Below are positions 33,668 through 39,499 of a DNA stretch of 64,000 nucleotides, piece after piece (positions within the stretch are counted from its first letter, which is position 1; every line of letters starts with the position of its first letter). The position numbers and the translations under genes were made by a program. The stretch comes from Haloterrigena sp. KLK7 (GTDB lineage Archaea > Halobacteriota > Halobacteria > Halobacteriales > Natrialbaceae): the NCBI RefSeq assembly GCF_037914945.1, contig NZ_CP149787.1, forward strand, positions 3,472,001 to 3,536,000, written 5' to 3'. Below the pieces are notes generated by a model. It ran no database searches. It saw only the letters and a program-made list of their open reading frames with translations, and was not told where the DNA came from.

Positions 33668-33736
33668 AAACAGAGATAAAAACACTTAGCTCGAATAATG
33701 GGTAGATTGATTATCACCGCGTTTGATGGATATCGT

Positions 33737-34132
33737 ATGAGCGATTCGGCGGACTCCGAACGAACCACCGTCAAAACCTACGTCCCGTCCTACCAGAAAT
33801 CTGAATGGCAGTCTCACGCCGACGAGCTGGGGATGAGTCAGGCCGAGTTCGTTCGAACGATGGTCCAGGCCGGTCGAAAGGGGTTCGACGCCGATCGCGA
33901 GGAACCCCGTTCTCCGTCCTCAGACCCTGGGGGTAACGGCCTCGAAACGCGGGTTCTAAAACTACTCGAATCTGACACGTACTCCTGGGACGAACTCCTC
34001 GAGGCAGTCAGCGACGACATCGAATCGCGACTCGACGAGACGCTCGCGGAACTCCAGGCGGACAACCGAATTCGATACAGCGGTCGCCACGGTGGATACA
34101 CCGCCGTCGACGGTGGTGGCGATGGCGACTGA
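33737..34132 (+). CDS. DUF5805-like protein with N-terminal RHH-like and C-terminal winged-helix parts
   Basis: The 131-aa protein starts SERTTVKTYVPSYQKSEWQS, then HADELGMSQAEFVRTMVQAG. This looks like a CopG-like ribbon-helix-helix region at residues about 8-45. The C-terminal half (LETRVLKLLESDTYSWDELL, AELQADNRIRYSGRHGGYTA) resembles a winged helix. I recall it as DUF5805, typically just before a tyrosine recombinase in haloarchaea. It overlaps the next gene by 11 nt (ATGGCGACTGA), so the two act together. It probably regulates, or is a directionality partner for, the recombinase (inference). Confidence 0.75.
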   Translation: MSDSADSERTTVKTYVPSYQKSEWQSHADELGMSQAEFVRTMVQAGRKGFDADREEPRSPSSDPGGNGLETRVLKLLESDTYSWDELLEAVSDDIESRLDETLAELQADNRIRYSGRHGGYTAVDGGGDGD

Positions 34133-35168
34133 GCGAGGTACCGACGCCCCGGCGGACGTCGCGGATCCGATCGAGTACTTCCTCGACGACCAGCGATACC
34201 ACGGCAAGAGCGAACGGACGCTCGAGGCCTACGAGCGCGTCCTCCGACGGTTCGAGACGTTCCTGAGCGAGCGCTTCGACGTCGATCGGGTGGGGGCGGC
34301 ACAGCGACGGGAGTGTATGGCCTGGATTCACTCCCTTCGAGGCGGGTTCGAACCGAGTACGATCGCGACCTACGCGTCGTATCTCAACCGGTTTTACGAC
34401 TACATGAACCGCGTCGGTGTCTTCGACGAGAATCCGATGACCCTGGTCATGGAGGAGCTGTCCGAATCGATCGATACGAATCCGACGAGACGGGATATCT
34501 CGGTCGCGGAAATGCGGTCGTTCGTCGCCGCGATCGACCACCCGCTCGAGCGGGCCGTCGTCGTCACGCTGTTGAAAACCGGGATGCGCGTCGGCGAGTG
34601 CTGTAATCTCGACTTGCGGGATCTGAACCTCGAGACGCCGGAAATCGACTGCGAGTGGACGACGCGCGTCGGACTCGAGCGCCGGCCGTCGTCGGTGTTC
34701 GTCGCTGCGGAGCCCGCTCGCGGGACGACCGTAAACGGGGAGCGACGAACGGCGTCGAACAAACGGAAGCGAGACACGGTCGTTCCCGTCGACGACGAAC
34801 TCCGACGGGCGCTGCTCGAGTGGCTGGCGATCCGTCCGGATCCCGTTTCTGACGCCGACCCGCTCTTCCTCGATACCGGTGACTCGTGGGGTGAGCGCCT
34901 GACGCCGGCGGACGTTCGGTATATCGTCGAGAAACACGCTCGAGAACGCGGCTGGTATCGCACCGGCGGCGGGACGGAAGAGAACGTCACGCCCCACTAC
35001 TTCCGGCACTTCTTCACGACGCACCTACGAGATCGGACGGGAGACCGCGGAATCGTTCAGTATCTTCGGGGCGACGTCGCCGGCGACGTGATCGACACCT
35101 ACACCCACAACTGGGGCGATCGAGTGCGGGAGACCTACCTCGAGCATATCTACTCCGTGACGCCTTGA
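34122..35168 (+). CDS. tyrosine recombinase/integrase (XerC/D-like)
   Basis: The 348-aa protein has an N-terminal SAM-like core-binding domain (about residues 15-112: TLEAYERVLRRFETFLSERF, YASYLNRFYDYMNRVG). The catalytic domain has Arg156 in KTGMRVGECCNLDLRDL, Lys215/217 on the beta-hairpin, box II H292-YFR295 in TPHYFRHFFTTHLRDRTG and Tyr327 in DVIDTYTHNW. The usual LGH box (third catalytic His/Trp) appears as YLRGDVAGD, so that residue is substituted. The start at 34122 overlaps the upstream gene. It may act on chromosomes (Xer-like) or on an element; no tRNA target is adjacent. Confidence 0.88.
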   Translation: MATERGTDAPADVADPIEYFLDDQRYHGKSERTLEAYERVLRRFETFLSERFDVDRVGAAQRRECMAWIHSLRGGFEPSTIATYASYLNRFYDYMNRVGVFDENPMTLVMEELSESIDTNPTRRDISVAEMRSFVAAIDHPLERAVVVTLLKTGMRVGECCNLDLRDLNLETPEIDCEWTTRVGLERRPSSVFVAAEPARGTTVNGERRTASNKRKRDTVVPVDDELRRALLEWLAIRPDPVSDADPLFLDTGDSWGERLTPADVRYIVEKHARERGWYRTGGGTEENVTPHYFRHFFTTHLRDRTGDRGIVQYLRGDVAGDVIDTYTHNWGDRVRETYLEHIYSVTP

Positions 35169-35460: not shown

Positions 35461-36396
35461 TCAGCTTTCGACTGCGAGTTCCGTCTCGAGGTCGGCCCCG
35501 TTCAGCAGCGCCCGAACGGCCGCCGCGGTGTCGGTCACTTCCGGCGTCGTCTCGAGCAGGACGGTCTCGCTGGGGAACAGTCGCTCGCCCAGCAGGAGGC
35601 CGTGCTCTCGGGCCGTCGAGCCCGTCACGGTCAGGTAGACCCCGAGTCCGGTGTCGGCGATCGCGGCCTCCTCCTCGCGACCCTCCTCGGGGTACTCGAA
35701 GCGAACGCCGTCGAGCGTTCGGGTACCGAGGACGGCCTGGACGAGCCGTTCGTACCGCGGTTCGATACACAGCGGTCCCTCGTAGGACTCGAGGAACGCC
35801 CGGTCGAGCGAGTCGCCCGACGGGGCGACGTCGGGCGTGGCCATCAGGGTATGGTAGACGGTGTCGCCGAGGCCGGTGACCACGCGGACGTCCGTGTCTG
35901 CGGGATCGATCCGAGCGTTGATGTCGGCGATCCGATCCAGTGGCTCCGGTCGGAGTTCGACGACTTCCTCCAGAATGAGATCGGCGCTGTCGAACCCGAG
36001 CGCGAACTCGTGGGTCCGCAGCGCTCGAAACGGCTCCTCGCGGCCGATCAACTGAATCGCCGCGTCGTCGGGGACGCCGTCGACGTCCGCGAGCGGAATC
36101 GTGACGCTGTCGAAGACGATCCGTCGGGGTTTCCCGGCGCGGTCGTCGCGCAACAGGGTGTACTCCGGTTCGGTGGGATCGTCGACGGCGCTGTAGTCGG
36201 CGAGACGATGGTACACGTGCTCTTCGGCGTCGGGTTCGGAGTCGACCGTTCCCTTCGTGACCGCCTTCTCGTGGCGGAGCGTCGACGTGATGTCGTCCGC
36301 GAGCTCCGGAACGTCGAGTCGACGCGCGAGTCGGTCCAGCACCGACTCGAGGGGTCGTCCTTTCCGTGGCACTGCGATCGGGATCGTCTCGCCCAT
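35461..36396 (-). CDS. HisG-like protein (ATP phosphoribosyltransferase fold, function uncertain)
   Basis: The 311-aa protein starts MGETIPIAVPRKGRPLESVL, strongly resembling the HisG N-terminus (R-I-A-(V/L)-P-N-K-G-R-L). A second region resembles the HisG catalytic-domain end: IADTGLGVYLTVTGSTAREH compares with LADAIVDxxxTGxTLRxNGL. The middle diverges and I see no clear PRPP loop, so it may be a paralogue with other specificity. It is 64 nt downstream of the 640-aa coiled-coil gene on the same strand, suggesting a shared transcript. HisF at 54935 is far away, so this is probably not the hisG of a histidine operon. Confidence 0.5.
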   Translation of the reverse strand: MGETIPIAVPRKGRPLESVLDRLARRLDVPELADDITSTLRHEKAVTKGTVDSEPDAEEHVYHRLADYSAVDDPTEPEYTLLRDDRAGKPRRIVFDSVTIPLADVDGVPDDAAIQLIGREEPFRALRTHEFALGFDSADLILEEVVELRPEPLDRIADINARIDPADTDVRVVTGLGDTVYHTLMATPDVAPSGDSLDRAFLESYEGPLCIEPRYERLVQAVLGTRTLDGVRFEYPEEGREEEAAIADTGLGVYLTVTGSTAREHGLLLGERLFPSETVLLETTPEVTDTAAAVRALLNGADLETELAVES

Positions 36397-36460
36397 CGCT
36401 CCGTTCTCGACCGCCGACGGATAAACGAGTTGCGTTTCCAGCAGAACGGCGACGGGCGCG

Positions 36461-38383
36461 TTACTCCGAGAACATCGAACCGAGCTGGTCGCGCCAGTCC
36501 TGAATGTCCGTGACTTCGGCGCGGACGTCCTCGATGTCTTCCTCGAGGTCGTCGACGTCGTCAGCGACATCGTCGAGATCGGCCGACACGTCCTCGACGT
36601 CCGCTTCGACCGTCTCGACGTTCGTTTCGAGGTCGGTCACGTCAGCCGAGAGCTCGTCGACGTCCGCTTCGACGGCGGTAACGTCCTCGGAGACGGCGTC
36701 GAGATCGGTCTCGACGTCGTCGAGCCGTCCCTCGGTATCGTCGAGTCGGCCCTCGGTGTCCGCGACCCGGTCGCCCATCGCGTCGAACTCGTCTTCGAGC
36801 GACGCGAGGTCAGACTGGAGGTCCTCGATGAGTTGCTCGCCGGTGCCGTTCTCCTCGAGGAACGCCTCGAGAGCGTCGGTGTAGGCGAGGACTTCCTCGA
36901 CGCGCGACTGGAGGTGTTCGACCTTCGCGATCTCCGGCCCCGACGGCTCGAGGTCGAGCGCGGAGCGAAGGGCCGCCAGATCGTCGTCGTCGAGTTCGCC
37001 CTCGCGGACCTCGGTCGCGAGGCGGGCGCCGATCGACTCTTCGACCGGTGCTGCGAGTTCGGGCTCGGCGGATTCGGTCTCGGCGGCGTCGTCCGCGTTC
37101 GCTGTCGACGTCGAGGCGGCGACCGGCTCGTCGTCGGAGTCGAGTTCGATCGTCGACTCCGCGTCGGGTTCGCTCGGCTCCGTCTCGTCTTCCTCGGCTG
37201 CGGTCGCCCCTTCCTCGAGGGCGTCCGTCTCGTCCTCCCCGTCGACCTCGTCGGCAGCCGGCTCGGCCGGCTCGGCGACCGCATCGTCCGTCGCGTCCGG
37301 CTCGTCGGCCTCGTCACTCGGCTCGTCGGCTTCGACCTCGATTTCCGGCGCGCTGTCGGTGTCGTCCGCATCGTCGGCGCTGGCCGCAGCGGCCTCGAGA
37401 TCGAGTTCGATCTCGGGCTCGTCCGCGTCGCCGGCCGATTCGTCAGTCGGTTCGTCGACGTCGGCCTCGTCGTCGGCTACCGGTTCCTCGTCGGTCCCGT
37501 CCGTCTCGTCGTCGACTTCGTCGGCCCCGAGATCGATTTCGACTCCTGCGTCCGGCCCCTCGTCCTCGGCCCCGTCGTCCTCGGCCCCGTCGTCCTCGGC
37601 CCCATCGTCAGCGTCCGCGTCCCCGGGCTCGGGGATCTCCTCCTCTTCGAAGCCGAGATCGATATCCGGCGCGTCATCGGCTTCGTCCTCGTCGGTGACC
37701 GTCTCGTCGGGTTCGGGGTCGACGTCGTCGAGATCCAGATCGAGTCCGCCGGACTCGTCGACGGAGTCGTCCACGGTGGCCTCGTCCTCGACGTCGTCAG
37801 CGGCGACCCCGTCAGCCTCGGCGGCGTCGGTCTCAGTATCGGCGTCGTCAGCCTCAGCGTCCGTGTCTTCGGGCTCGTCATCGTCGGCCTCGAGCCCGGG
37901 CACCGACTCCGAGTCGCCCGCGATCATGTCTTTGACCGGTTGGTTTCGGTCTTCGGAGACGATGTTGCCGATGACGTCGTCGTCGACCTCCTCGGCCTCG
38001 GAGTCGCTCTCGGCGTCGGAGCTGACCTCGACGAGTTCCGGTTTCGTCAGGAACGCGTCGGCCTCGCTCTCGTCGTCGATTCGGATACCGTAGACCGTTA
38101 CGAGGCGTTCGTTCGCGTCGAGACTGCCGGTGAACTCGACGTGGTTGTCCTGGAACGCGGTCCAGTCGTCGCTGTGATACTCGGGGTGGAACCCGACTTT
38201 GTCCATCGGGAACGATTCGGGGATGTCCTCGGAGAGACGAAATTCGACCTGATCCTCGCGCTCCGATTCGATTTCGAACCGGATGGCAGGGACGGGAAAC
38301 TCGTCCGCCGCGAACGTCTTCCGAACGGATAATCCGTCGGCGCTGACTTCGACCTCGTCGTCCGTGTCGGCGGTGCTACTCAT
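36461..38383 (-). CDS. large acidic protein with N-terminal domain and C-terminal coiled coil
   Basis: In this 640-aa protein, residues about 1-125 form a compact domain (ADGLSVRKTFAADEFPVPAI, ESEREDQVEFRLSEDIP). Residues about 130-440 are extremely acidic and low-complexity, containing a DDGAE triplet at about residues 260-275. The last 120 residues are heptad-like (EGRLDDTEGRLDDVETDLDA, then VSEDVTAVEADVDELSADVT). This suggests a rod or multimer with a flexible acidic arm, possibly a cytoplasmic structural or organising protein. No known catalytic motif. Followed by the HisG-like gene on the same strand. Confidence 0.7.
   Translation of the reverse strand: MSSTADTDDEVEVSADGLSVRKTFAADEFPVPAIRFEIESEREDQVEFRLSEDIPESFPMDKVGFHPEYHSDDWTAFQDNHVEFTGSLDANERLVTVYGIRIDDESEADAFLTKPELVEVSSDAESDSEAEEVDDDVIGNIVSEDRNQPVKDMIAGDSESVPGLEADDDEPEDTDAEADDADTETDAAEADGVAADDVEDEATVDDSVDESGGLDLDLDDVDPEPDETVTDEDEADDAPDIDLGFEEEEIPEPGDADADDGAEDDGAEDDGAEDEGPDAGVEIDLGADEVDDETDGTDEEPVADDEADVDEPTDESAGDADEPEIELDLEAAAASADDADDTDSAPEIEVEADEPSDEADEPDATDDAVAEPAEPAADEVDGEDETDALEEGATAAEEDETEPSEPDAESTIELDSDDEPVAASTSTANADDAAETESAEPELAAPVEESIGARLATEVREGELDDDDLAALRSALDLEPSGPEIAKVEHLQSRVEEVLAYTDALEAFLEENGTGEQLIEDLQSDLASLEDEFDAMGDRVADTEGRLDDTEGRLDDVETDLDAVSEDVTAVEADVDELSADVTDLETNVETVEADVEDVSADLDDVADDVDDLEEDIEDVRAEVTDIQDWRDQLGSMFSE
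37560..37604. repeat. three 15-bp tandem repeats within the acidic protein gene
   Basis: The unit TCGTCCTCGGCCCC(G/A) occurs three times in a row. It encodes DDGAE repeats on the minus strand (AEDDGAEDDGAED). In-frame units of this kind vary in number between strains, so the repeat marks a length-variable acidic spacer. Confidence 0.7.
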
Positions 38384-38468: not shown

Positions 38469-39299
38469 CTAGAGATCGATCCGGTCGCCGATTTCGACGA
38501 TCTCCAGTTCCCGCGGGTAGTCGAAGCTCCGGGTGTGGTGGTGGAGGACCTTCGGATCGGACGTGAGCCGCTTCCACATGTCCCAGTGACTCGGCAGGAG
38601 CCGATCGAGTTCGAGCGATTCGGCGGCCTCGATGATCTGGTTCTCGTCGTTGTACCAGCGCGTTCTCTTCGGTTCACCGGTCTCCTTGTCGGGGATCATC
38701 CCGACGGTCCCGAACGCGAGGATCCCGAGGTCGATGTCGTACTCCTCGCCGAGGCGCTCGAACTCGTCGCTCGGTTTCGTGTCTCCGCCGTGGAAGATCG
38801 TCCCGGTCTCGTGTTCGAAGACGTAGCTGACCGGCTGGGTCGAGTCGGGGTCGTTGGCCGCTTCGACGTGGACCGTGAACTCGCCGATCTCGATCGTCTC
38901 TCCCTCGCTCACGTCGACGAACTGCTCGTCGTCGAGGTCCCACTCGTCGGTCCAGTTCTCCTCGCGGGCCACCGCGAGGCTGTCGTCGGGCGCGTAGAAG
39001 GGCGAGTCCGTCGACTCGAGGATCGGTGCCTGACTCTCGCCGTGGACGTGATCAGAGTGTTCGTGGGTCGCCAGAACGGCGTCGGCCTCGGTGACGTCCT
39101 CGGGATCGAACGGAACGGGGATCATCCGGATCGTCCGCGGCGGCGTGCCTAAGCCGAGATACGGATCGATGTAGACGGTCGTCCCCTCGCGTCCCTTGAG
39201 GACGAAGCCGTTACAGCCGAGATACCAGATCCCGACGCTATCGGGCGAGGCGTCTTCGACATCGCGTACGAGCCAGTCTCCCCAGTCGCTTTGGACCAT
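38469..39299 (-). CDS. metallo-beta-lactamase-fold hydrolase (UlaG-like)
   Basis: The 276-aa MBL-fold protein has the metal motif THEHSDHVHGE (HxHxDH, H79-H84) and a later FHGGDTKPSDEF plus LLPSHWDMW. It starts MVQSDWGDWLVRDVEDASPD and continues VGIWYLGCNGFVLKGREGTT, matching UlaG (L-ascorbate-6-phosphate lactonase) types that keep a Gly/Asn-rich start. The real substrate in haloarchaea is uncertain. The ATG at 39297-39299 was chosen as the start of this conserved region rather than the upstream frame. Confidence 0.85.
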   Translation of the reverse strand: MVQSDWGDWLVRDVEDASPDSVGIWYLGCNGFVLKGREGTTVYIDPYLGLGTPPRTIRMIPVPFDPEDVTEADAVLATHEHSDHVHGESQAPILESTDSPFYAPDDSLAVAREENWTDEWDLDDEQFVDVSEGETIEIGEFTVHVEAANDPDSTQPVSYVFEHETGTIFHGGDTKPSDEFERLGEEYDIDLGILAFGTVGMIPDKETGEPKRTRWYNDENQIIEAAESLELDRLLPSHWDMWKRLTSDPKVLHHHTRSFDYPRELEIVEIGDRIDL

Positions 39300-39499
39300 G
39301 TGCGAGGGTGGGAGGACCGACTGGGTAAGTGTTATTGTCTCGACGGACACGTCGGACTCGAGTCCGACGAGTGGACTCGCAGTCGGAAGGAGAGTAATCG
39401 GGTGAGTCAGCGATCGATTCGTCGCGATCGATGCGGTCGTTGCAGTTCGCGTGGACGTTGGCGACCACCTCGCCGGTGATCAGCGAACGGTGAACCGCC

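Follow-up and report, generated by a model that had tools for sequence, protein, structure and literature searches.

The minus-strand gene at positions 35461-36396 of the window (the whole 64,000-nucleotide stretch of Haloterrigena sp. KLK7 DNA analyzed here) encodes a 311-residue protein. With a probability of roughly 0.6, this protein belongs to the HisG (type IV phosphoribosyltransferase) superfamily as a member of a haloarchaeal subfamily distinct from ATP phosphoribosyltransferase; its ligand would be a phosphoribosyl compound or a nucleotide, and its role would lie outside histidine synthesis. Its status as a HisG-superfamily paralogue is well supported, and a class-wide subfamily without a name so far is the best reading of the protein and its relatives. 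HisG is usually regarded as a one-function enzyme family.

Class-wide distribution of the HisG-like gene

The gene runs from an ATG at 36396 to a stop codon at 35461-35463 (coding part, 35464-36396); the sequence-only reading of this DNA had placed it exactly, and both peptides that it quoted are present in the translation. The start codon is backed by the family-wide alignment and by a promoter-like element that precedes it by 30 bp. The gene is present in a single copy in its own genome and can be aligned across the class. Family matches were found in 266 of 292 Halobacteria genomes, mostly in single copy and in a few cases as two matches, and the gene is missing from 26. In one genome (G097), the match is in two pieces and its best score is weaker (1.2e-66), which may reflect a broken copy or a frameshift. 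In a sample of 196 genomes of the phylum, 29 Halobacteria carried the family at E values below 1e-140, and only two other matches appeared, both weak (1.5e-4 and 8.6e-4), the first being a true methanogen-type HisG of 290 residues.

In a contig search for relatives, the best 80 of 217 matches all bore haloarchaeal titles. In the one annotated record that we consulted, a Natrinema plasmid, the product is called "hypothetical protein," and the family is not mentioned in the literature searched through a single library, including passages of PMC8305020, in which the word HisG is absent. Identity between the window protein and its counterparts in other haloarchaeal families is mostly 66 to 72%, compared with 68 to 74% for HisG in three haloarchaea outside the window's family, suggesting that the HisG-like family evolves about as slowly as HisG itself.

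Relation to HisG in sequence and predicted structure

As a single sequence, the window protein matched no Pfam or NCBIfam family convincingly and gave no HisG match at an E value of 1 or better, and a single-sequence search of the PDB returned nothing useful. The relationship emerges from the family. Pfam HisG was the commonest Pfam match, hitting 29 of 35 aligned members (best E, 2.4e-4), followed by WH_GDS1 (9 of 35; best E, 0.0067), while HTH_31 matched one member of the 35 (E, 0.039); the commonest NCBIfam match was hisG (16 of 35). The C-terminal regulatory domain of HisG was absent from the Pfam matches of these 35 members. When the Pfam HisG model was run over 60 genomes, it picked up family members in three (E, 6e-4, 0.003, and 0.05), with scores of 14.7 to 20.7 bits that lie below the PF01634 cut-off of 25.5 bits. 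In the reverse direction, the family profile picked up the methanogen-type HisG mentioned above (E, 1.5e-4); against PDB sequences, the same profile gave chance matches only and no HisG even at an E value of 10.

A HisG profile made here matched the family colinearly at residues 4-24 and about 240-290. The resemblance to HisG claimed by the sequence-only reading is above chance: the 111 real members, a set in which some rows are nearly identical, among them the copy from the window's own genome, reached 15.6 bits (median, 6.4), against maxima of 5.6 bits for shuffled decoys (546 of 888 reported) and 0.3 bits for reversed decoys (91 of 111 reported). Profile-profile comparison with hhalign aligned the loop segment with an E value of 2.4e-4 and a probability of 44% for 35 members, and with 3.7e-4 and 36% for 111 members. 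A global hhalign alignment (-glob) to HisG was meaningless and was discarded. Since the loose local alignment placed the middle of the protein implausibly, residue pairs outside the N terminus and the loop were not used.

The AlphaFold2 model of the protein (mean pLDDT, 84.4; pTM, 0.79) points to the same relationship. With this model as the query, the 50 best matches listed by Foldseek were all HisG (best E, 1.8e-7), at low TM-scores (0.33 to 0.46 by query length) and an rmsd of 6 to 10. In VIA-align, 35 listed HisG entries ranked first (Z, 10.7 to 13.6), among them 4yb7 (Z, 13.6; rmsd, 4.2; 209 aligned) and 2vd3 (Z, 13.4; rmsd, 3.6; 201 aligned). LysR, periplasmic-binding protein (PBP), and similar chains scored 9.3 or less, below every listed HisG entry. 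An unrelated fold, which would have undone the HisG assignment, was not the best match of the model, and both the sequence profiles and the fold comparison support the description of the protein as having a HisG fold. In the model, strands and helices follow one another as in the HisG core, with an extra segment at residues 28-90 (36127-36315, minus strand). This family-specific insertion of about 60 residues, whose boundaries are drawn from the model's secondary structure and the alignment, separates helix 1 of the HisG fold from strand 2, is predicted to contain helices at 30-48 and 61-68 and a strand at 78-82, and bears out the earlier remark that the middle is divergent. Among viral proteins, a structure search found just two matches below an E value of 0.001, both of them giant-virus proteins whose names denote bifunctional histidine-pathway enzymes (E, 3.4e-6 and 2.7e-4).

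Conservation was assessed on 119 distinct members, left from 137 sequences after removal of duplicates and representing the closer part of the family among fetched sequences; across them, 89 alignment columns are invariant. R14, R91, R92, R119, E242, E243, Y254, G259, and T261 are identical in 119/119. The sequence-only reading saw no clear PRPP loop, but the stretch that it quoted, TGLGVYLTVTGSTAREHGLL, is itself the HisG phosphate-loop segment (YLTVTGSTA), though with the invariant Asp changed to Tyr. Profile alignments and invariance place this loop at residues 253-263, VYLTVTGSTAR (35608-35640, minus strand). The Asp is present in 24 of 24 aligned HisGs, and Tyr254 takes its place in all 119 family members; of the PRPP loop pattern D-x-x-x-T/S-G-x-T-L, T-G-S-T is kept, the Asp is missing, and the Leu after the loop is replaced by Ala. 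Since HisG D156 is lost, ligand binding may be lost as well.

At the N terminus, the motif PRKGRPLE (residues 10-17; 36346-36369, minus strand), which includes the invariant R14, is the counterpart of HisG PNKGRL according to the HMM alignment. The invariant pair R91-R92 (36121-36126, minus strand) would correspond, from strand order, to HisG R32/K33 (PaHisG R56/K57). In the parts of PMC9734150 and PMC10795190 that concern them, PaHisG R32, R56, and R73 are described as important for leaving-group departure and the ATP gamma-phosphate. By spacing, we place these arginines at R10, R32, and R49 of the own-genome HisG; their equivalents in the HisG-like protein would be R14, R91/R92, and R119, at matching strands, R14 being the only one placed by sequence alignment. 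The likewise invariant Glu143 of HisG may have its counterpart in the E241-E243 run.

Neighboring genes and a promoter-like element

As the sequence-only reading had noted, the gene adjoins an acidic coiled-coil gene on the same strand. This conserved upstream neighbor (36461-38383, minus strand) encodes an N-terminal beta-sandwich, a long acidic stretch, and a C-terminal coiled coil, and beyond it lies a conserved gene for an MBL-fold (UlaG-like) hydrolase (38469-39350, minus strand). The location outside his genes holds for the neighbors that could be identified (MBL hydrolase, coiled coil, integrase, and Dph2). In 34 diverse loci drawn from 80 fetched, the MBL hydrolase gene was present in 33, always in the same orientation, the coiled-coil gene in 30 (at most 300 bp upstream in 28 and about 1 kb in 2), and Dph2 in 24; a coiled-coil relative was not found in 4 of the 34 loci, all of which keep the HisG-like gene. 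The HisG-like gene thus usually lies downstream of the MBL-hydrolase and acidic coiled-coil genes. The overlapping DUF5805 and tyrosine recombinase genes (window 33698-35168) were kept near the locus in 16/34 and 19/34 cases, respectively, so that the recombinase looks like a resident rather than a passing mobile element.

The MBL query had matches, paralogues included, in 288/292 genomes, and the coiled-coil N-domain query in 271/292 Halobacteria. The nearest matches of the MBL neighbor are UlaG-type MBL hydrolases (PDB IDs 2wyl and 3bv6), but its 101.7 bits against NCBIfam UlaG are below the cut-off of 306. HVO_2763, the topic of PMC3296008, is apparently a different MBL protein. The beta-sandwich of the coiled-coil protein (about residues 10-120) is conserved, with GFHPEY and TVYGIR motifs, and matched no Pfam family convincingly; its model (pLDDT, 78.6) gave a best fold match at a Z of 8.6 (rmsd, 2.7; 95 aligned), and from such middling matches we draw nothing.

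Four genomes of one genus in the window's family (loci L169-L172) lack the HisG-like gene. Their MBL and coiled-coil genes are adjacent, the recombinase follows after a gap, gene order is kept, and no trace of the HisG-like gene was detected by profile (best E, 0.05 or worse), which makes this a clean lineage-specific loss. In a fifth genome (G123), only the coiled coil is retained at that place. Since the MBL and coiled-coil genes persist where the HisG-like gene is lost, they do not need it. We also considered an obligate three-gene machine and rejected it, given this survival and the four loci without a coiled-coil relative.

A promoter-like element of 16 bp that is conserved across the class, AAACGCAACTCGTTTA (36422-36437, minus strand), precedes the HisG-like gene, has a unique exact match in the genome, and contains the arms AAACG/CGTTT; its GTTT begins 30 bp before the ATG. 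Across loci, the 70 bp preceding the ATG contain a conserved AAACGCAAC-NN-GTTTA. The first base of GTTT falls at -31 to -29 in 31/34 loci (shifted windows, 0-1/34), and GTTT occurs in 76 of 80 (window -35 to -22 or -31 to -29; shifted controls, 0-2); the longer AA.C.{7}GTTT is found in 26/34 and 64/80 loci, against 0 in shifted windows. The first expression, TTWWWW, had matched 2/34, and the later pattern was picked after viewing the sequences, with the shifted windows as its control. A regulon sharing the element found no support, with one exact and four two-mismatch matches in the genome compared with two for a reversed-pattern control.

Passages of PMC4983044 give the haloarchaeal TATA element as TTWT and the BRE as CGAAA, and 72% of the protein-coding transcripts in Haloferax as leaderless. 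The position of the element suggests a leaderless transcript starting from the ATG, and the HisG-like gene therefore probably has its own promoter and a leaderless mRNA. The element would be either a core promoter or an operator; its CGCAAC segment, flanked by the BRE-like and TATA-like pieces, may serve as an operator. A promoter of its own would allow the gene to be used independently of its two neighbors.

Ligand, chemistry, and competing explanations

The reading that we prefer, a HisG-superfamily protein working outside histidine synthesis, would involve a cytosolic protein of two domains whose loop and arginines hold a phosphoribosyl-type compound or a nucleotide in the interdomain cleft. 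Lacking the ribose-side acid and carrying an insertion beside the active-site strands, it may use another acceptor or another chemistry, and it would most likely be an enzyme and less likely a ligand-binding regulator. Retention in most Halobacteria, slow evolution, and a consistently rewired loop imply an important function in the whole archaeal class, which can be tested in genetically tractable haloarchaea.

A catalytically dead HisG paralogue serving as a ligand sensor or regulator, the first idea of the sequence-only reading, is possible but doubtful. It would bind PRPP, AMP, or a similar molecule and alter the activity of a partner, for example, via the coiled-coil neighbor, as would suit the uniform Asp-to-Tyr replacement and the frequent placement of the coiled-coil gene within 300 bp upstream. 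However, the 35 members contain no convincing DNA-binding domain, the WH_GDS1 and HTH_31 matches being weak; many of the invariant columns are charged and spread along the chain, which looks more enzyme-like; and the two neighbors persist after loss of the gene.

A more specific proposal, unlikely as a whole, is a class-wide haloarchaeal enzyme of the phosphoribosyltransferase fold that has a Tyr in place of HisG's ribose-side Asp and a new acceptor or a new chemistry, acting in an undescribed MBL-linked pathway under the control of its own dedicated promoter element. In such a pathway, a phosphoribosyl compound might, for instance, be made or cleared by the HisG-like protein and opened by the MBL hydrolase.

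The second idea of the sequence-only reading, a solute sensor of the PBP or LysR-effector type, is very improbable. The HisG and PBP folds are related, and LysR and PBP chains did reach Z scores of 8.5 to 9.3, but HisG entries outrank them throughout, no PBP family is among the 11 Pfam families touching any of the 35 members, and the model, in which strand 1 begins at residue 4, leaves no room for a signal peptide.

We give scarcely any credence to a second ATP phosphoribosyltransferase still making PR-ATP for histidine synthesis. It would account for the retained HisG fold and loop and for the invariance of the arginines equated with catalytic ones, but the loop Asp is lost, the HisG C-terminal domain is not among the Pfam matches, and a search elsewhere in the genome found an intact, canonical long-form hisG (G000:C1:1390373; 300 residues; 176.5 bits against Pfam HisG), far from which the HisG-like gene lies. 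This separate gene makes the first step of histidine synthesis an unlikely role for the HisG-like protein, which, given its score below the curated cut-off and its missing loop Asp, is not to be filed as an ATP phosphoribosyltransferase. That it might be the only hisG of the genome is excluded by the same copy.

With the type 2 periplasmic-binding fold and the LysR effector domains, the HisG-like protein shares a general two-domain cleft fold, but it scores lower against them than against HisG and has no apparent signal peptide and no convincing helix-turn-helix. With HisG (PF01634 and TIGR00070; PDB IDs 2vd3, 1h3d, and 6fua), it shares the secondary-structure order, the N-terminal KGR motif, the T-G-x-T phosphate loop, and invariant arginines that would match the catalytic ones. 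It differs from HisG in its Pfam score, in a C-terminal regulatory domain that was not found, in the insertion, in the Tyr that replaces the loop Asp, and in having a true hisG alongside it.
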